Positions 55,849 through 64,000 of a stretch of 64,000 nucleotides of DNA are shown in pieces. A model generated the notes under the pieces. It had not been told where the DNA came from, made no database searches, and saw only the letters and a list, made by a program, of their open reading frames with translations. Positions within the stretch are counted from its first letter, which is position 1. Each line of letters begins with the position of its first letter. The stretch comes from Thermotogaceae bacterium (GTDB lineage: Bacteria > Thermotogota > Thermotogae > Thermotogales > Thermotogaceae), in the NCBI GenBank assembly GCA_026993805.1, contig JALWSA010000028.1, forward strand, positions 1 to 64,000, given 5' to 3'. The position numbers were made by a program, and so were the translations under genes.

Positions 55849-57663
55849 GTGTACGATCCCAGGTTTATAAGAAACATATGCATAATTGCGCATATCGATC
55901 ATGGTAAAACCACTCTAATCGATAGAATCTTAGAGCTCACCAAAACGGTGAGTTCTCGCCAGATGAGAGAACAGTTCCTGGATATGATGGATATCGAAAG
56001 GGAAAGAGGGATAACGATAAAAGCCCAGCCTGTCAAGGTTTATTACGATGCAAAAGACGGGAACAGATACGAGATAAACATAATAGACACGCCAGGACAT
56101 GTAGACTTTTCTTACGAAGTTGGAAGAAGCATGGCAGCATGTGAAGGTGCTGTCCTTCTTGTAGATGCTTCCCAAGGAGTGGAGGCTCAAACGGTGGCTC
56201 ATACATACCTCGCCATAGAACACGATTTGGAGATCATACCCGTTATAAACAAGATAGACCTTCCGAACGCTAATATCGAGGATACAGCGCTTCAAATAAT
56301 GGATCTTTTAGGAGTGGAGGAAGAAGAAATTCTGAAAGTGAGTGCGAAGAACGGTACAGGTGTCATAGATCTTCTGGAAGCAATAGTTAAAAGAGTTCCG
56401 CCGCCGAAGGGAAGAGCAGACGACAAGTTGGTGTCATTGATATTCGATGCCAGATATGACAAGTACCGCGGAGTCGTTGTTTCCGTGAGGATCTTTTCAG
56501 GGAGAGTAGAGAAAGGTGACAAGATCATGACCATGTCCAACGGGATGGTCTACGAAGTCAGCGAAGTAGGAGCATTCACGCCTTTTATGAAAGAAACGGA
56601 GGCACTATCTGCAGGCGAAGTCGGATACATAATAGCCGGAATAAAAGAAGTTTCGCAGGCAAGAGTTGGGGATACTATAACACTGGCAAGCGATCCAGCA
56701 GACAAACCGCTTCCTGGATATAAGGAGATAAAGCCCATGGTATATGCTGGAATGTATCCAGGCTTACCAGAATATTATGAAGATCTTCGAAAGGCCCTTG
56801 AAAAGCTCAAGCTTAACGATTCTGCTTTGGTTTTCGAGCCGGACAACTCTCCAGCTTTGGGATTTGGCTTCCGGGTGGGATTTCTTGGCCTTCTTCATAT
56901 GGATGTTGTCAGAGAGAGGATAGAAAGAGAGTTTGATCTTGCTGTTATTCTCACAGCACCAAATGTCATGTACAAAGTTAAACTGAGAAATGGAGAAATG
57001 ATAGAAGTTACCAATCCGGCGAAATTTCCTGATGAAGCAGATGTGGAGGAGGTTTACGAACCCTATGTAGACCTTTCGATAATAACTCCCAATGAATTTG
57101 TTGGTAACATGATAAATCTCGTACAAGTAGAAAAGCGAGGACGACTTTACACCACAGAGAACGCTGGAAAGAACCGCGTAATACTGAGATTTGAGGCACC
57201 TCTTTCCGAGATAATATTCGATTTCTTCGATAGAATGAAAGCCTTAAGCAGAGGATATGCTTCGATGGATTATGAGTTTTTGGAGTACAGAAAATCCGAT
57301 CTCGTTAAGGTAAGTATATTGGTGAACAAAGAACCTGTTGACGCCTTGGCTTTTGTTGTGCACAGGTCCAAAGCGTACACAGTTGCGAGGAAGGTTGTGG
57401 AAAAGCTGAAAGATCTCATACCGAGACATCAATTTCAGATTCCAATACAGGCAAAGGCAGGCGGAAGGATAATAGCGAGGAGTGATATAAAAGCGTTGAG
57501 AAAAGATGTGTTGGCAAAGTGCTACGGAGGAGATGTGACGAGGAAGATGAAACTTTTAGAGAAACAAAAAGAAGGAAAGAAGCGACTCAGGGAAATAGGT
57601 ATGGTGAGGATTCCACAAGAGGCATTTTTGGCTTTGCTCAGGATAGGGGAGGAAGAAGAATGA
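55849..57663 (+). CDS. lepA: Elongation factor 4 (LepA)
   Basis: 604 residues, ribosomal back-translocase GTPase. G1 AHIDHGKTT (14-22), G2/switch ERERGITIKAQ, G3 DTPGHVDFSYE, G4 NKIDLP, G5 SAKNGTG; then domains II, III, V and the LepA-specific C-terminal domain with KAKAGGRIIARSDIKALRKDVLAKCYGGD. Full length. GTG start after AGGAGGGA. Its stop overlaps the lipoprotein start by TGA/ATG. Confidence 0.97.
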   Translation: MYDPRFIRNICIIAHIDHGKTTLIDRILELTKTVSSRQMREQFLDMMDIERERGITIKAQPVKVYYDAKDGNRYEINIIDTPGHVDFSYEVGRSMAACEGAVLLVDASQGVEAQTVAHTYLAIEHDLEIIPVINKIDLPNANIEDTALQIMDLLGVEEEEILKVSAKNGTGVIDLLEAIVKRVPPPKGRADDKLVSLIFDARYDKYRGVVVSVRIFSGRVEKGDKIMTMSNGMVYEVSEVGAFTPFMKETEALSAGEVGYIIAGIKEVSQARVGDTITLASDPADKPLPGYKEIKPMVYAGMYPGLPEYYEDLRKALEKLKLNDSALVFEPDNSPALGFGFRVGFLGLLHMDVVRERIEREFDLAVILTAPNVMYKVKLRNGEMIEVTNPAKFPDEADVEEVYEPYVDLSIITPNEFVGNMINLVQVEKRGRLYTTENAGKNRVILRFEAPLSEIIFDFFDRMKALSRGYASMDYEFLEYRKSDLVKVSILVNKEPVDALAFVVHRSKAYTVARKVVEKLKDLIPRHQFQIPIQAKAGGRIIARSDIKALRKDVLAKCYGGDVTRKMKLLEKQKEGKKRLREIGMVRIPQEAFLALLRIGEEEE

Positions 57664-58133
57664 AACGAATAGTTTTGTTTTTAATTGTTGCGATCCTTCT
57701 TTTAACGTCATGTACTATTTCACCGCCATTCATCATAAGAGAAGGTGTGAGTACAAAAGAAATAGCCATGCTGCTCAGCGACACATACACACTGGTATCC
57801 GTGGATAGAGTGGATGAAATAGAAGGCTATAAAGCTTTTGGTTACGCCGCGATTTATGAAGATAGTGGCATGTTTATACTACATGTCACGCGTTTTAGGA
57901 AAGTATTTCTTGCCCGAATGGCATTCGAAGGGGTAACGCTTGTAAAACATGGGTTAAAACTTAAATCATTTTCTGAGGGGATATCGTGGGGAAAAGCGGA
58001 GTACGGCGACGATCTAATGTATACCGTTGTTCTCTGGTCTGAAAAATGGTTGATAACGATATCGGGATTTAAGAAAACGGTTAAAAGTGTGGCCAAAATT
58101 CTAATTGAGCGAATCGAGTCTATGGTATCATAG
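57660..58133 (+). CDS. Lipoprotein of unknown function
   Basis: 157 residues. The signal peptide ends in the lipobox LLTSC (Cys about 18), predicting lipid attachment. The mature part is a compact alpha/beta domain (YKAFGYAAIYEDSGMFILHVTRFRKVFLARMAFEGVTLVKHG). No family recognised. It overlaps lepA (ATGA) and is the last gene before a promoter-like signal. Confidence 0.7.
   Translation: MKRIVLFLIVAILLLTSCTISPPFIIREGVSTKEIAMLLSDTYTLVSVDRVDEIEGYKAFGYAAIYEDSGMFILHVTRFRKVFLARMAFEGVTLVKHGLKLKSFSEGISWGKAEYGDDLMYTVVLWSEKWLITISGFKKTVKSVAKILIERIESMVS
58123..58131 (+). promoter_or_regulatory. Extended -10 ahead of the large membrane protein
   Basis: TGGTATCAT just inside the 3' end of the lipoprotein gene, about 32 bases before the GTG at 58163; a TTGAGC lies 15 bases upstream of the -10. 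Confidence 0.4.
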
Positions 58134-58162: not shown

Positions 58163-60412
58163 GTGAAATCTCGAGTATTTTTTGTGATAATGCTCCTCCT
58201 CTTCGTGGTTACCTCACTTGGATATTTGAAAGTGGAGACTGTAAAGGATAGGTACATAGATCTTGTGAGGGACTTCGAAACTGGAAGTAGTGTAGATCCT
58301 TTTGTGCGTTATGTAAAAGACCAGCTTCCAAACCTCGCCTTGTACAGATTCTATAAGATAAAGATGGTTGGAAGTGTCGATAAAAGGGAATCTGCTTTAG
58401 ACATTCCTTACTTTTTAATGGCCTTGGTTAAGGTTAAGGAAAGTAAAACCATCGGTTATGAATCACTCAATCTCGGAAAATTCTGTGAAGAGGAAGAAAG
58501 CTTCTCCTTCGAATTTGGACTCTTCACTGAGGAAGAGGAAAGAAAAAAGAAGGAGGAAGAGGAAGAAAAATGTCTGAAAAAGATTCTGAGTGCGCTTGGT
58601 AAAAATCCCAGAGAGGAAAGATTGGTCTCGCTTGATTTCAATGAGCTCTTTGCAAGGGCACTTTTTCTATCCTATGTAGAGTCTCGGCTTGAAAAGACAA
58701 ACGTGACAGAAAGCCTTGTGAAACACAGCGCGGCTCTTACCTATGCTTTCAACCTGTACAACGATTATGTATCGGACGACTTGGAGTTCGTTTTCACACA
58801 CTATATTGGGTATTACCTGGGTGTTATTCACGAAAAAATTCCATTTGAAATACCCGGTGTTTCAAAAGTAGCGTGTGAAAATTGTAAGTACGTAAAGGTC
58901 TATCCTGGCGAGGAGTATCTGCGATCTTTCATGAAGAATTTCGATGAAGACGATGTCTTAGGCGTTAAAAAAAGAATAGAAATAGCTGTGAATCTTCTTG
59001 CAACGAAGGAATACACCGACAGCAGAGAGTTCGAATGGAATATAAGGTTGGCTTCACAATTTCTTTTCGAAAGGTTCTTTAAGGACTCCATGACCAAAAT
59101 GGAATGGACGGACTTGCGAGAGAATATGGAACGCATGCTGGAGCATACAATGGCATACTATTTAGGTGGGACCGACGTGATTCCTCCGATATCGCTTGAT
59201 GTACCAGTGAGGAAACTCAGATGTGGAAATGAAAGTTGCGTTTACAGGTTTTTCAGATATAAGGCGCCTGATCAGCTCAAAGGTATACTAACGATTCCAG
59301 ACGTGAAAGCCAGCATCAATGAAGTTTTGACAAGGTTGTCGCAAGAGCGGTTATCTCCAGAGGATTTGAGCAAGGAGATTGAGAGGGTCTCGGATGAACT
59401 GGAAGGTCGTGCAAAGGATGATATACAAGATCTCAAGGACAAGTTAGCGAAAATTGCTGCGGAATCATCCCCGAGGAGCTTTTCCTTGTGGTGGTTACGG
59501 TTTTTATTTTACGTTGTTTTGTTATCTTTCTCGATGTTTAAGGGCAGATGGAAGCTTACACTCACCCTTGTGGCTTTAGTAGAGATGTTTTACATAACCT
59601 TCTTCATAGATCTGAATTCTCGCGGAGAAGGTTTGTTCTATTCTCTCGCTATGTTCTATACATTTGCATTTGCGCTGCTCTTGTCTTTAAAAAAGCCAAA
59701 GAAGAACGTTCTTTGGCTGATATTCGGGACTGTTTTCATAGCTCTTCTATTTATGCCTACTTATATGAAGAGTGAATTTCTAAAGATGTCTTCTCACCCA
59801 GAATTCCACGATTCTCCTTACTATGATCTTTTGAAAGATGATCTTTTTGACGGTGCAAAGTTCGAGAGAAAGGGAAAGTTGATGGAGGAGGAAATAGAAT
59901 CTCGTTTTGGAAGGTACCTGATAAAAGCGCTGGCAAGTGAAAATCCTGAAAAAAGCCTGCAATTCAAAAGTGCCCTTAAGCTTGCGGAAAATATCTTCAG
60001 ATATTCCGATGAGAAACTAAAAAGCGATTTTATGAAATTTCTGAAATTGAGACTTGCGGATAGGAAGGACCTTTTGGTTCATTTTGAGAAACTGTATGAA
60101 AAATATCAGGGAAGAACCGAGCCACCCCATGTTGTCTCACTCCAAGCTTATTCATCCGCGAAAGCGGCTATAATATTCATGATGATATTCGCTCTTGGAT
60201 ATTTTGGGGTTAACAACATAGTTTTATCTGGGGCTGCATTGGCTGCGGGCATTTTCTTCTTGCTTGAGAAGGCAGTAGTCTTTGTGGAATACGCTGTTCC
60301 CACATTACAACTAAAGGGGCGATTTATCAATGTTCCATGGGTTGAGATATTGCTCATCATCCTGTCGGCAATGCTAATCAAAAAACTTTTTAAAGGGAGG
60401 GTGAAAACATGA
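58163..60412 (+). CDS. Large membrane protein of unknown function
   Basis: 749 residues, unrecognised. A signal-like helix (about 5-21) leads to a long extracytoplasmic helical domain with a strongly acidic/charged stretch (FTEEEERKKKEEEEEKCLKK, about 121-140), a CxxC pair in VACENCKYVKVYPG and another CG-x4-C (RCGNESC). Around 435-525 are three to four membrane helices, then a second soluble part, then two or three C-terminal helices (680-745). The paired Cys patterns repeat (C..C YVKVY / C....C VYRFF), suggesting duplicated subdomains or metal/disulphide sites. It overlaps the ABC binding-protein gene by ATGA, so it may serve the transporter. GTG start behind GGGGGTGAA. Confidence 0.7.
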   Translation: MKSRVFFVIMLLLFVVTSLGYLKVETVKDRYIDLVRDFETGSSVDPFVRYVKDQLPNLALYRFYKIKMVGSVDKRESALDIPYFLMALVKVKESKTIGYESLNLGKFCEEEESFSFEFGLFTEEEERKKKEEEEEKCLKKILSALGKNPREERLVSLDFNELFARALFLSYVESRLEKTNVTESLVKHSAALTYAFNLYNDYVSDDLEFVFTHYIGYYLGVIHEKIPFEIPGVSKVACENCKYVKVYPGEEYLRSFMKNFDEDDVLGVKKRIEIAVNLLATKEYTDSREFEWNIRLASQFLFERFFKDSMTKMEWTDLRENMERMLEHTMAYYLGGTDVIPPISLDVPVRKLRCGNESCVYRFFRYKAPDQLKGILTIPDVKASINEVLTRLSQERLSPEDLSKEIERVSDELEGRAKDDIQDLKDKLAKIAAESSPRSFSLWWLRFLFYVVLLSFSMFKGRWKLTLTLVALVEMFYITFFIDLNSRGEGLFYSLAMFYTFAFALLLSLKKPKKNVLWLIFGTVFIALLFMPTYMKSEFLKMSSHPEFHDSPYYDLLKDDLFDGAKFERKGKLMEEEIESRFGRYLIKALASENPEKSLQFKSALKLAENIFRYSDEKLKSDFMKFLKLRLADRKDLLVHFEKLYEKYQGRTEPPHVVSLQAYSSAKAAIIFMMIFALGYFGVNNIVLSGAALAAGIFFLLEKAVVFVEYAVPTLQLKGRFINVPWVEILLIILSAMLIKKLFKGRVKT

Positions 60413-61497
60413 AAAAGCTCTTTGTGGTTTTCTTGGTAGCTGCAGTAGTGCTAAGTGCATTCGCTTTCAAAGTCATCATGGTTACAGATACAGGAGGGCT
60501 GGGGGATAAGTCGTTTAACGATGGAACATGGCACGGTATAGTCAAGGCTGCGAAAGAAGTTGGAGCGGATTACGAAGTGATCCAGTCCTATGAACAGGCA
60601 GACTACATACCGAACCTTTCTAAAGCTGCAAAAGAAGCGGATATGGTTTTTGCGGTTGGATTCATGATGACTGACGCTCTTTTCAAAGTGGCTGCTCAGT
60701 ATCCGAACACCAAGTTCGTGGGAATAGACATAGTTCCACCTGAAGGAAAAGAGCTTCCGAATGTTCTGACATTCACATTTAAGGAACAGGAAGCGGCGTT
60801 CCTCGTTGGTTATGTAGCAGCTGCCATGACCAAGACTGGTATAGTCGGATTCGTCGGTGGAATACCAATACCGCCAGTTGAGAGATTCAGGTATGGATTT
60901 GAAGCAGGCGTGAAGATGTTCGCTAAACTTCATGGCAAGGATATAAAGATCCTGCGCGGTTACACCCAGGAGTTCTCCGATCCAAAGAAGGGTAAGGATC
61001 TCGCCATGTCCCAATTCGCTGAGGGTGCCGATGTGATATTCCACGCTTCTGGAGCTTGTGGTAACGGGGTCATCGAAGCTGCCAAGGAAAAGTTTGCAGC
61101 TCTTGTTGGAAAGGCAAACCCAACTCTTGAGGACTTCATAAACTACTATTACGAGCACGGTAAGGGCTTCTTTGCTATAGGTGTCGATGCCGATCAGGAC
61201 TACATGGCTCCCGGAGCTGTTTTAACATCCGCTATGAAAAGGGTTGACATGGCAGCGTACTATGCTGTGAAATGGGCTTACGAGGGAACATTCAAGGGAG
61301 GTCATATGGTACTCGGTCTCGCTCAGGAAGGTGTCGGCATGAGCCCGATGAGATACACCAAGGGATTAGTTCCAACGAGAGTATTGGCTGAGCTGCTTCT
61401 CATAGAAAAGCTCATAAAGGAAGGAAAATTCGTTATCCCCGATTCTCAGGAAGCTCTCGATTCCTTCAAAGTTCCTCCTATAAAGTTCCCGTTCTAA
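60409..61497 (+). CDS. BMP family ABC transporter substrate-binding protein (PnrA-like)
   Basis: 362 residues. Signal peptide MKKLFVVFLVAAVVLSAFA; then FKVIMVTDTGGLGDKSFNDGTWHG, the invariant opening of basic membrane protein/PnrA nucleoside receptors, with FHASGACGNGVIEAAKE and GVDADQDYMAPG later, all ligand-site motifs of the family. There is no lipobox Cys, unlike most PnrA proteins. Probably binds purine nucleosides. RBS AAGGGAGGGTGA. Confidence 0.94.
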   Translation: MKKLFVVFLVAAVVLSAFAFKVIMVTDTGGLGDKSFNDGTWHGIVKAAKEVGADYEVIQSYEQADYIPNLSKAAKEADMVFAVGFMMTDALFKVAAQYPNTKFVGIDIVPPEGKELPNVLTFTFKEQEAAFLVGYVAAAMTKTGIVGFVGGIPIPPVERFRYGFEAGVKMFAKLHGKDIKILRGYTQEFSDPKKGKDLAMSQFAEGADVIFHASGACGNGVIEAAKEKFAALVGKANPTLEDFINYYYEHGKGFFAIGVDADQDYMAPGAVLTSAMKRVDMAAYYAVKWAYEGTFKGGHMVLGLAQEGVGMSPMRYTKGLVPTRVLAELLLIEKLIKEGKFVIPDSQEALDSFKVPPIKFPF

Positions 61498-61509
61498 GGA
61501 GACGAATTT

Positions 61510-61532
61510 GCCGGGGCGTCTGCTGCCCCGGC
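61510..61532 (+). terminator. Hairpin after the BMP binding-protein gene
   Basis: GCCGGGGC (61510-61517), 7-base loop, GCCCCGGC (61525-61532), without a good T-run. More likely a transcript-stabilising or attenuating hairpin than a full terminator, since transporter genes follow. Confidence 0.6.
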
Positions 61533-61555
61533 ATTATCTATGGAGGCAATTTTCT

Positions 61556-62068
61556 ATGAAGAAGGAACAGGTTTATTTGTTGGTTTTCATTGGCACTGTG
61601 GTTGCTTTGTTTTTATTTTTAATGCTCATGAACTTTGAGCGTGCTTCTTATAGTGCCATTAAGGATGAAATAAGTGAATTTCTGAAAGAAACTCTGATGA
61701 AACTGAAGGACGGAGAGCTTAATATCTACGAATTGATCTACAAACCCTTTTATATGGGCGATGTGGATGAAGGGCTGGCGGCTTATAAGGTAGTTTTCGA
61801 AGGTTTGGGGCAAGACATAAGAGCTTTTTTAGGTCACGAGTTGAATATTTCCGTGGATATCAAGGGGTTGACTCGCTTAAACAGAGATTTGATACCCAAA
61901 AGGTTGCGTCCATTCGTACAGGATGAATACGTTTTTATTTGGAGATACCGTGTTGACAATGTGGAAGGACCTTGGGTTGAGGGTAGAGTCGTAAAAGTGG
62001 AAGACAGATGCTACTTTGGCGTTGTATACAGCTCGGATGGTGGAATTTCAGTGTACCCTTCTTTTTGA
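61556..62068 (+). CDS. Small membrane-anchored protein inside the BMP transporter operon
   Basis: 170 residues: one N-terminal membrane helix (about 5-24, VYLLVFIGTVVALFLFLML) and a soluble domain of about 140 residues with no recognised family (EISEFLKETLMKLKDGELNIYELIYKP ... YVFIWRYRVDNVEGPWVEGRVVKVEDR). It sits between the binding-protein and ATPase genes; BMP operons normally lack such a gene. ATG 61556 after GGAGG. Confidence 0.7.
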   Translation: MKKEQVYLLVFIGTVVALFLFLMLMNFERASYSAIKDEISEFLKETLMKLKDGELNIYELIYKPFYMGDVDEGLAAYKVVFEGLGQDIRAFLGHELNISVDIKGLTRLNRDLIPKRLRPFVQDEYVFIWRYRVDNVEGPWVEGRVVKVEDRCYFGVVYSSDGGISVYPSF

Positions 62069-62084: not shown

Positions 62085-63617
62085 TTGGAAAAGGAATATG
62101 CTGTGGTTATGAAAGGGATTGTAAAGAGATTTCCTGGGGTTTTAGCCAACGACCATGTGGATCTGCACGTAAAAAAGGGCGAGATTCACGCTGTGGTGGG
62201 TGAGAACGGGGCAGGTAAAACTACCTTGATGAACCAATTGTACGGGCTACTCCACCCTGACGAAGGCGAGATATACATATTCGGAAAGAAAGTTAACTTC
62301 CGCGGTCCAAGAGATGCCATAGAAAATGGCATAGGAATGGTTCACCAGCATTTCATGCTCGTGGATAATTTGACGGTTGCAGAAAATGTCGTCTTGGGTT
62401 CCGAATCTAAAAAATGGGGCTTCATGTTCGACCTTTCCAGTGCTAAGAAGGTTGTTAAGGAACTCTCGGAAAAATACGGGCTATATGTAGACGTAGACGC
62501 AAAGATAGAAGATATACCTGTTGGTATGCAACAGAGAGTCGAGATACTGAAAACGCTTTATAGGGGTGCTGAGATACTCATATTCGACGAACCAACAGCG
62601 GTTTTAACCCCGCAAGAAACGGAGGAACTTTTCGAAGTGATGAGAAGGCTTAAAGAGGCCGGGAAAACAATGATATTCATATCACATAAACTCAATGAAG
62701 TTATGGAAATCTCGGACAACATAACGGTTATGAGACTTGGAAAGGTTACTGCGAATCTTGTCACGAGTGAAACAAACCCGAGAGAAATTGCGAGAGCAAT
62801 GGTTGGAAGAGATGTTGTCCTGAGAGTTGAAAAGTCTGCTCACAAACCGAAAGAAGTCGTTTTCGAAGTGGAAAATCTATGGGTCAAAGATAACAGAGGG
62901 CTTGATGCTGTCAAAGGAATAAGTTTCAATGTGAGAGCTGGTGAAATCGTTGGAATCGCTGGAGTTGCTGGAAACGGACAAACCGAGCTCGTTGAAGCTA
63001 TCAGTGGACTCAGGAAAGTGGAAAAGGGAAGCATAAGACTTCTTGGAAATGATGTGACAAATCTTGATCCAAGAAAACTCAGGGATATGAGACTTTCGCA
63101 TATACCTGAAGACAGACTAAAACATGGCCTTATAGTTCAATACCCAGCGTATTATAACTTGATACTTGGGCAACACTGGTGGAGACCATTTTCTAACAAC
63201 GGCTTTCTCGATCACAATGCCATCTATGAAAACGCGAAGGACCTGTTTGAAAAGTTTGATATAAGGCCAAGGAATTGGAGAATGCTTGGAGGAAACTTTT
63301 CAGGTGGAAATCAGCAGAAGATAGTGGTTGCAAGAGAGCTGAATGCCAAGCCAAAATTCATCGTAGTTGCACAGCCAACGAGGGGACTTGATGTAGGAGC
63401 AATCGAGTTCATACACAAAACACTTTTAAAGCTGAGGAAAGAAGATGTGGCTATCCTTCTGATTTCCATGGAACTTGAAGAAATCTTTTCACTGTCTGAC
63501 AGGATCTTGGTGATGTATGAAGGAGAGATAATGGGGCAGGTGCGGCCTGAGGAAACCACTGTTGAAGAAGTCGGGCTAATGATGGCGGGCAAGAAATTAG
63601 AAGAGGTGAGAGCATGA
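62085..63617 (+). CDS. Nucleoside ABC transporter ATP-binding protein (two NBDs)
   Basis: 510 residues with tandem nucleotide-binding domains. First: Walker A GENGAGKT (39-46), MQQRVEILK, Walker B ILIFDEPTAVL. Second: degenerate Walker A GVAGNGQTE, signature FSGGNQQK, then FIVVAQPTRGLD. This is the NupO/YufO and ribose-type layout that pairs with BMP binding proteins. TTG start behind GAGGTGAAGAGA; its stop overlaps the permease start. Confidence 0.94.
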   Translation: MEKEYAVVMKGIVKRFPGVLANDHVDLHVKKGEIHAVVGENGAGKTTLMNQLYGLLHPDEGEIYIFGKKVNFRGPRDAIENGIGMVHQHFMLVDNLTVAENVVLGSESKKWGFMFDLSSAKKVVKELSEKYGLYVDVDAKIEDIPVGMQQRVEILKTLYRGAEILIFDEPTAVLTPQETEELFEVMRRLKEAGKTMIFISHKLNEVMEISDNITVMRLGKVTANLVTSETNPREIARAMVGRDVVLRVEKSAHKPKEVVFEVENLWVKDNRGLDAVKGISFNVRAGEIVGIAGVAGNGQTELVEAISGLRKVEKGSIRLLGNDVTNLDPRKLRDMRLSHIPEDRLKHGLIVQYPAYYNLILGQHWWRPFSNNGFLDHNAIYENAKDLFEKFDIRPRNWRMLGGNFSGGNQQKIVVARELNAKPKFIVVAQPTRGLDVGAIEFIHKTLLKLRKEDVAILLISMELEEIFSLSDRILVMYEGEIMGQVRPEETTVEEVGLMMAGKKLEEVRA

Positions 63618-64000
63618 AGGCAATGGCTCTACCACGTTTTTGGGCTTTCGTGGTTCCGATTGTTTCGGTAATAGTCGCTCTTCTAATAGCTTCAATAGTG
63701 ATAATAATGATTGGGAAGGATCCGATTCAGGCTTATGAAATACTTTTTAAGGGCGCTTTCGGATCAAGTTCGGCTATAGCAAACACCATAGTCAAAACAA
63801 CACCCTTGATATTGACAGGGCTTGCGGTTGGATTCGGTTTCAGAGCCGGCGTTTTCAACATAGGTGCGGAAGGCCAGATGATAATGGGGGCCTTGATGGC
63901 CACACTCGTTGCGATAAACCTCGGTGAAGTACCGCCCTTTTTGGCAATATCCCTCGTTATGCTAACAGGAATGCTCGCAGGGGCTGGATGGGCCGCTATA
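63614..64000 (+). CDS. Nucleoside ABC transporter permease (N-terminal part)
   Basis: 129 residues visible; continues past the window. Begins MKAMALPRFWAFVVPIVSV with hydrophobic helices, then TTPLILTGLAVGFGFRAGVFNIGAEGQMIMGA, the conserved BMP-transporter permease segment (NupP type). ATG overlaps the ATPase stop (ATGA). Confidence 0.9.
   Translation, partial: MKAMALPRFWAFVVPIVSVIVALLIASIVIIMIGKDPIQAYEILFKGAFGSSSAIANTIVKTTPLILTGLAVGFGFRAGVFNIGAEGQMIMGALMATLVAINLGEVPPFLAISLVMLTGMLAGAGWAAI

Follow-up and report, generated by a model that had tools for sequence, protein, structure and literature searches.

A membrane protein family almost universal in sampled Thermotogota is encoded directly upstream of a BMP nucleoside-type binding protein

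The PnrA/BmpA-type importers, which combine a BMP substrate-binding protein (PF02608) with an ATPase carrying two ATP-binding cassette (ABC) domains and two permeases of the PF02653 family, are the described systems closest to the one examined here. Our window, the whole stretch of DNA analysed, comprises 64,000 nucleotides from contig 28 of the 1.69-Mb genome of a Thermotogaceae bacterium (GenBank assembly GCA_026993805.1, contig JALWSA010000028.1), in which the gene of a 749-residue membrane protein, here named BIG, precedes a BMP gene, and the gene of a 170-residue protein, here named SMALL, lies between BMP and the ATPase. The locus resembles the PnrA/BmpA type in its PnrA-like contact residues, its 510-residue two-ABC ATPase, its permease family and its gene order, but differs in the fifth, phylum-specific membrane protein gene that Thermotogota have before the binding protein gene. 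The pnrABCDE cluster of Treponema pallidum also comprises five genes by name, pnrB being an extra protein next to pnrA; however, pnrB lies downstream of pnrA, in a position like that of SMALL and unlike that of the upstream BIG, and it is not known to be related. For the archaeal cluster TK0657-TK0660, the account given in the cited source is one of four genes (PMC12628685), compared with five in Thermotogota.

Distribution of BIG and its linkage to one BMP type

A search with the single window sequence recovered BIG from 58 of 61 genomes, its own genome counted, and all 18 named loci found with the window BMP protein belong to Thermotogota. A family profile built from 39 BIG sequences was searched against 390 genomes, 103 of them from Thermotogota and 287 from outside the phylum but within the domain. 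The profile identified BIG relatives in 101 of the 103 Thermotogota genomes, covering 38 of 38 genera and 81 of 82 good-quality genomes. The same profile, limited to a maximum of three scored candidates in each genome, yielded no credible relative in the 287 genomes outside the phylum, where the one match (G104, E 6.8e-4 over 59 residues) resembles UvrB, judged by eye from its N-terminal sequence. Inspection of the N-terminal sequence also led us to reject G008:C120 (E 3e-5), a 786-residue protein that has two hydrophobic segments and resembles a receptor in its layout. Within this sample, the BIG family occurs in Thermotogota alone, and in nearly all of their genomes. The sequence-only reading had called the large membrane protein an orphan, a description that fails for BIG and would stand for SMALL, whose only credible match among the 103 genomes is in its own genome.

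Two family members read as interrupted. One profile match (G021:C1:340916-342745) crosses a single in-frame TAA, and in the single-contig genome G069 (C1:1668482-1670796) BIG is present as two open reading frames (ORFs) of 565 and 210 residues, split in the second half of the protein, for which a split gene, a frameshift and a sequencing error are candidate causes. A literature search limited to open-licence PMC articles found no paper on BIG. The corresponding Thermotoga maritima genes are presumably TM0101-TM0105, and a literature search on these locus numbers gave nothing on Thermotoga.

The surroundings of BIG were fetched from all 101 genomes that carry it, and linkage was testable in 98, as the contig ends directly behind BIG in three (G038, G059, and G095). 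A BMP gene lies directly downstream of BIG on the same strand, at a distance of -160 to +167 nucleotides, in all 98 testable genomes, including G069, where it follows the second BIG ORF. Homologues are therefore not found mostly away from transporters, and the suggestion of the sequence-only reading that BIG is built into an importer operon is strongly supported. The exact 4-nucleotide overlap between BIG and BMP occurs in 58 of the 98, a count that used the first possible start codon and may therefore be a lower bound. Both genomes without BIG also lack this BMP type; G044 (60% complete) has no BMP match, and G048 (90% complete) has distant BMPs only, with a best identity of 34%. Among the 38 loci drawn for gene-order comparison, the block of BIG, BMP, ATPase and two permeases is intact in 35, while the flanking genes vary between families. 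The three loci off this pattern (L050, L053, and L068) have an ORF that is additional or overlaps another, possibly from mechanical ORF choice. Two genes of the permease cluster are visible in 37 of the 38 relative loci as drawn.

BIG changes rapidly in sequence: over the 90 loci that hold full-length BIG, BMP and ATPase, BIG has a mean identity of 23%, compared with 61% (BMP) and 67% (ATPase). Such fast change would agree with BIG being an envelope protein with no link to the importer beyond a common operon, but the absence of any separation in the 98 testable genomes, despite flanks reshuffled between families, makes this very improbable. The codon scores of BIG are those of a coding frame, and the ratio of nonsynonymous to synonymous substitution rates (dN/dS) is 0.04 to 0.17 in four of seven relative pairs with computable dS, the lowest value having a saturated dS (2.5). 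Because of the strict linkage, the joint absence, the reshuffled flanks and the purifying selection, we consider it highly probable that BIG is a functional part of this nucleoside importer.

The linkage is specific to one type of BMP. Paralogous BMP genes (30 genes, 25 to 54% identical to the window BMP) were examined in 25 loci fetched from Thermotogota, and BIG was found beside a paralogue in none; one of these loci (L049) also contains a normal BIG block, and another (L191), which gives just 675 nucleotides upstream, has no BIG match there. These loci bear on the idea that BIG serves the permease pair as a factor for assembly or stability, which would aid insertion or folding and stand outside the working transporter. 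The position of the BIG gene ahead of BMP, ATPase and permeases is in line with such a role, as is a membrane domain with conserved polar residues in the first two transmembrane (TM) helices (R446 in TM1 and E474 in TM2). However, the other BMP genes of the phylum in the fetched paralogous loci, many of them with their own ATPase, lack BIG, which is thus not a general requirement of such permeases, and we regard an assembly factor as unlikely.

Some of the paralogous loci have features of their own. The genome of the window carries a tandem pair of distant BMP genes (L167:8117-10271, G000:C64), 27 to 29% identical to the window BMP, with its own ATPase and without BIG. In Thermosipho genomes, a second BMP 54% identical to that of the window (L187:6001-7074 and L189:6001-7074) stands in a locus with no recognised ATPase and no BIG, and may share the main importer.

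Outside the phylum, a BMP gene was found in 12 of 58 genomes. Twenty loci from 11 genomes were fetched, and BMP was recognised in 16 of them (17 genes, 9 of which are directly followed by an ATPase gene); the remaining four (L216, L222, L226, and L227) had no recognised BMP and were left out of the count. BIG is among the drawn genes of none of the 16 loci, one of which (L215) has no upstream sequence, its contig starting at BMP. A gene for a 622-residue protein with three TM helices upstream of BMP in L212 was considered and rejected, as it is FtsK-like by eye and lies between RNase J-like and BMP-like genes.

Predicted anatomy and conservation of BIG

The BIG gene (58163..60412, plus strand) encodes a signal peptide, a helical periplasmic domain, four TM helices, a second periplasmic domain, three further TM helices and a short cytoplasmic tail, as read from hydropathy, AlphaFold2 and Lys/Arg topology. 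By hydropathy, an N-terminal signal segment is followed by two groups of hydrophobic segments, one of about four and, after a gap, one of about three; some helices are split, and in some members weak ones stay below the threshold. TM helices 1 to 4, which include the strongly conserved R446, Y450 and E474, span about residues 443-534 (59489..59764, plus strand) and helices 5 to 7 about residues 663-744 (60149..60394, plus strand), both groups being seen in hydropathy and in the AlphaFold2 model. The Lys/Arg content of the inside loops is 0.28, compared with 0.05 outside, and the inside value is higher in all 39 sequences; both long stretches are therefore placed in the periplasm. Their median lengths are 232 and 186 residues, with 413 and 128 in the window protein.

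Structure prediction was combined with repeat detection, the check that the sequence-only reading had proposed, and gave a confident, nearly all-helical AlphaFold2 model (mean predicted local distance difference test score 87.5, predicted template modelling score 0.79, and 89.4 on the former scale for the N-terminal domain alone), together with an internal duplication found in the sequence. Foldseek searches at E <= 0.001 returned no match in the PDB for either the whole model or the N-terminal domain, and none in BFVD for the whole model. The second-look aligner VIA gave best Z scores of 6.5 for the whole model and 5.5 for the N-terminal domain, a range that the aligner calls common, and the best match of the BIG sequence profile against the PDB had an E of 0.05. 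The lack of a PDB match is no proof of a new fold. Scanning the 39 members with Pfam and NCBIfam produced scattered weak matches and no coherent family; a match to the prenyltransferase PRK13595 (NF010119) was rejected, being found in one of the 39 members with 19.5 bits against a curated cut-off of 248.

The layout recalls that of the 7TMR-DISM receptors, which have a signal peptide, an ectodomain and seven TM helices. BIG is alike in these three features, but its TM helices are split 4+3 by the second ectodomain and it has no cytoplasmic signalling domain; none of the 39 members matches the Pfam 7TMR-DISM domains. A receptor-like layout and a strict pairing with one BMP type would suit a regulator of the importer, in which nucleoside-loaded BMP, on binding the periplasmic part of BIG, alters ATPase activity or represses uptake. 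However, the inside loops are short and the C-terminal tail after TM7 consists of a few residues, leaving no cytoplasmic domain, so that signalling would have to pass through the transporter itself. A regulatory role is less probable than either an assembly factor or the separate activity considered next.

Nine residues are kept in at least 38 of the 39 sequences (Y61, R62, G70, G220, R446, Y450, E474, P532, and S551), several of them near the membrane surface. Conserved residues at the junction between periplasmic domain and membrane comprise P437, W444, R446, P532, M542, S551, L557, and V708, and this cluster in the predicted structure is easier to reconcile with a hub for docking or handover than with a soluble enzyme. 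BIG could instead have a separate activity that feeds the importer, as an outward-facing enzyme (nucleotidase or nuclease) or a nucleoside or base channel, and its gene linkage to nucleoside uptake and large periplasmic part would agree with this. Such an activity seems improbable, slightly more so than an assembly factor, given that the Pfam and NCBIfam matches of the 39 members are scattered and weak and that His, Cys and Asp are absent from the columns conserved to at least 75%, most of which hold aromatic or hydrophobic residues, Gly or Pro, the others being three Arg, one Glu and two Ser.

The Cys pairs of the window BIG, noticed earlier as being arranged twice, are present at residues 238/241 (CENC) and 354/359 (CGNESC), and the run of Glu and Lys noticed with them lies at residues 128-136. 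Both pairs lie within the internal duplication, with the CxxC pair in copy 1 (residues 205-243, 58775..58891, plus strand) and the CxxxxC pair in copy 2 (residues 320-361, 59120..59245, plus strand). The two copies align with a score of 50, compared with a mean of 26.3 and a maximum of 47 in 500 shuffles, and positions 140-241 of the family profile match the window BIG twice. The duplication, together with an extra stretch that here includes the Glu/Lys run, defines a longer form of BIG found in the window genome and its nearest relatives (six sequences). All six have six Cys residues at matching places, one with a seventh, and 19 of the 39 members have no Cys at all; judged from this alignment, the paired Cys are a lineage feature and not part of the family core. 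They presumably form disulfides in the periplasmic domain of a thermophile.

The importer, its likely cargo and the neighbouring genes

All genes from 55.8 kb of the window run in one direction, in the order lepA, DUF3242 lipoprotein, BIG, BMP, SMALL, ABC ATPase and first permease. The lepA and DUF3242 lipoprotein genes (55849-58133, plus strand) also stand upstream of BIG in L034 and L035, and the other drawn loci with upstream sequence have different neighbours. BIG has a GTG start preceded by AGGGGGTGA and shares the four nucleotides ATGA with the BMP gene (60409..61497, plus strand), an overlap already reported in the sequence-only reading. The BMP gene has its own Shine-Dalgarno-like GGGAGGGTGA and therefore need not depend on coupling alone. 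Promoter-like matches numbered 13, compared with 14.3 in shuffles, and thus show no excess. The ATPase (62085..63617, plus strand) has two stretches of PF00005 within its 510 residues, and the first permease (63614..64000, plus strand), which runs off the window, matches the BPD_transp_2 family (PF02653, E 1.6e-44). An ORF for the second permease lies on the same contig past the window and is cut by the contig end.

The window BMP, a nucleoside-type substrate-binding protein with a signal peptide and no lipobox, matches PF02608 above cut-off (E 1.2e-67) and can be aligned with PnrA, BmpA/BmpD and the Clostridium thermocellum Lbp. Its residues D27, F36 and F189, aligned by hand to PnrA D27, F36 and F186, have a frequency of 1.00 in the 98 linked BMPs, compared with 0.17, 0.23 and 0.23 in 30 unlinked Thermotogota BMPs. 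Phe36 is, we assume, the second purine-stacking phenylalanine of PnrA. In the published description, two phenylalanines, one of them named as Phe186, stack against the purine in PnrA and BmpD, and Asp27 touches inosine (PMC7093131); for crystals of the C. thermocellum Lbp, the cited text describes density fitted by guanosine (PMC9601137). Since the linked BMP keeps PnrA-like contact residues, purine nucleosides are the likely cargo of the BIG-linked importer. A Kosmotoga olearia "basic membrane lipoprotein", Kole_1554, is named among core functions in a figure legend (PMC5674127) and may correspond to the linked BMP. An Rfam scan of nine loci for regulatory RNAs as a clue to the cargo gave no family except a tRNA.

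A GC-rich hairpin of 10 pairs, including one G-T, lies 11 nucleotides past the BMP stop codon (61509..61533, plus strand); a hairpin directly past a binding-protein gene often stabilises its mRNA. Behind it lies SMALL (61556..62068, plus strand), whose likeliest start is the ATG at 61556 behind GGAGG, rather than the TTG at 61508. SMALL has one N-terminal hydrophobic segment and coding-like codon use, and has no credible relative in the other Thermotogota genomes (103 searched) or in 50,697 phage records; a match in G014 (E about 3.6e-4) resembles pyruvate phosphate dikinase, by eye from its N-terminal sequence. Among the 96 loci with both BMP and ATPase, none but that of the window has a SMALL-like gene between them, and the gap is -100 to 260 nucleotides except in the window genome (587), L129 (313), L147 (423), and L152 (745). 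The gaps of L129 and L147 have no open frame longer than 62 codons, and that of L152 contains the beginning of an ATPase reading frame that is split. In the BIG block of L152 (7490-9201, G089), the ATPase reads in more than one frame. By these comparisons, SMALL is an orphan and a private insertion of this genome. BIG and SMALL, presented earlier as a pair bracketing BMP, thus do not belong together, BIG being the phylum-wide partner and SMALL the private addition.

Possible role of BIG in nucleoside uptake

We propose that the core purine-nucleoside ABC importer of Thermotogota has BIG as a dedicated fifth component. The membrane half of BIG would lie against the permease pair, and its periplasmic domains would act as a platform on which the soluble, non-lipidated BMP is bound close to the permeases, making the handover of captured nucleosides efficient. 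We put the probability that BIG works by docking BMP at roughly 0.45, ahead of an assembly factor, a separate activity and a regulator, in that order.

Several observations weigh against this proposal. The lack of a lipid anchor was considered as a signature of BIG-linked BMPs and discarded, since the lipobox is absent in all 98 linked BMPs but also in 29 of 30 unlinked ones, and thus a habit of the phylum. The paralogous BMPs, almost all non-lipidated (lipobox in 1 of 30), manage without BIG, so the missing lipid anchor alone does not explain it. A candidate docking insertion at BMP residues 229-250, found in at most 0.07 of the 30 unlinked BMPs, is present in just about 68% of the linked ones and was dropped as not universal; no universal docking feature was found on the 98 linked BMPs examined. 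BMP importers elsewhere, such as TK0657-TK0660 in the cited account, have four genes (PMC12628685). BIG itself changes fast (23% mean identity compared with 61% and 67% for BMP and ATPase), so whatever interface it has is not tightly constrained in sequence.

A binding protein is usually kept at its permease by a lipid anchor, or reaches it by diffusing freely. We tentatively suggest, as a possibility with odds clearly below even, that in Thermotogota a membrane protein with a new fold takes on this recruitment of the soluble binding protein, so that their ABC nucleoside importer would represent an obligate five-component class. If so, the usual inventory of BMP importer components (binding protein, ATPase, and two permeases) would lack an entry for a whole phylum, and a family without a Pfam match or recognised fold would acquire a function open to testing. 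The proposal would also be relevant to how a soluble binding protein is kept close to its permease in cells whose periplasm is large.

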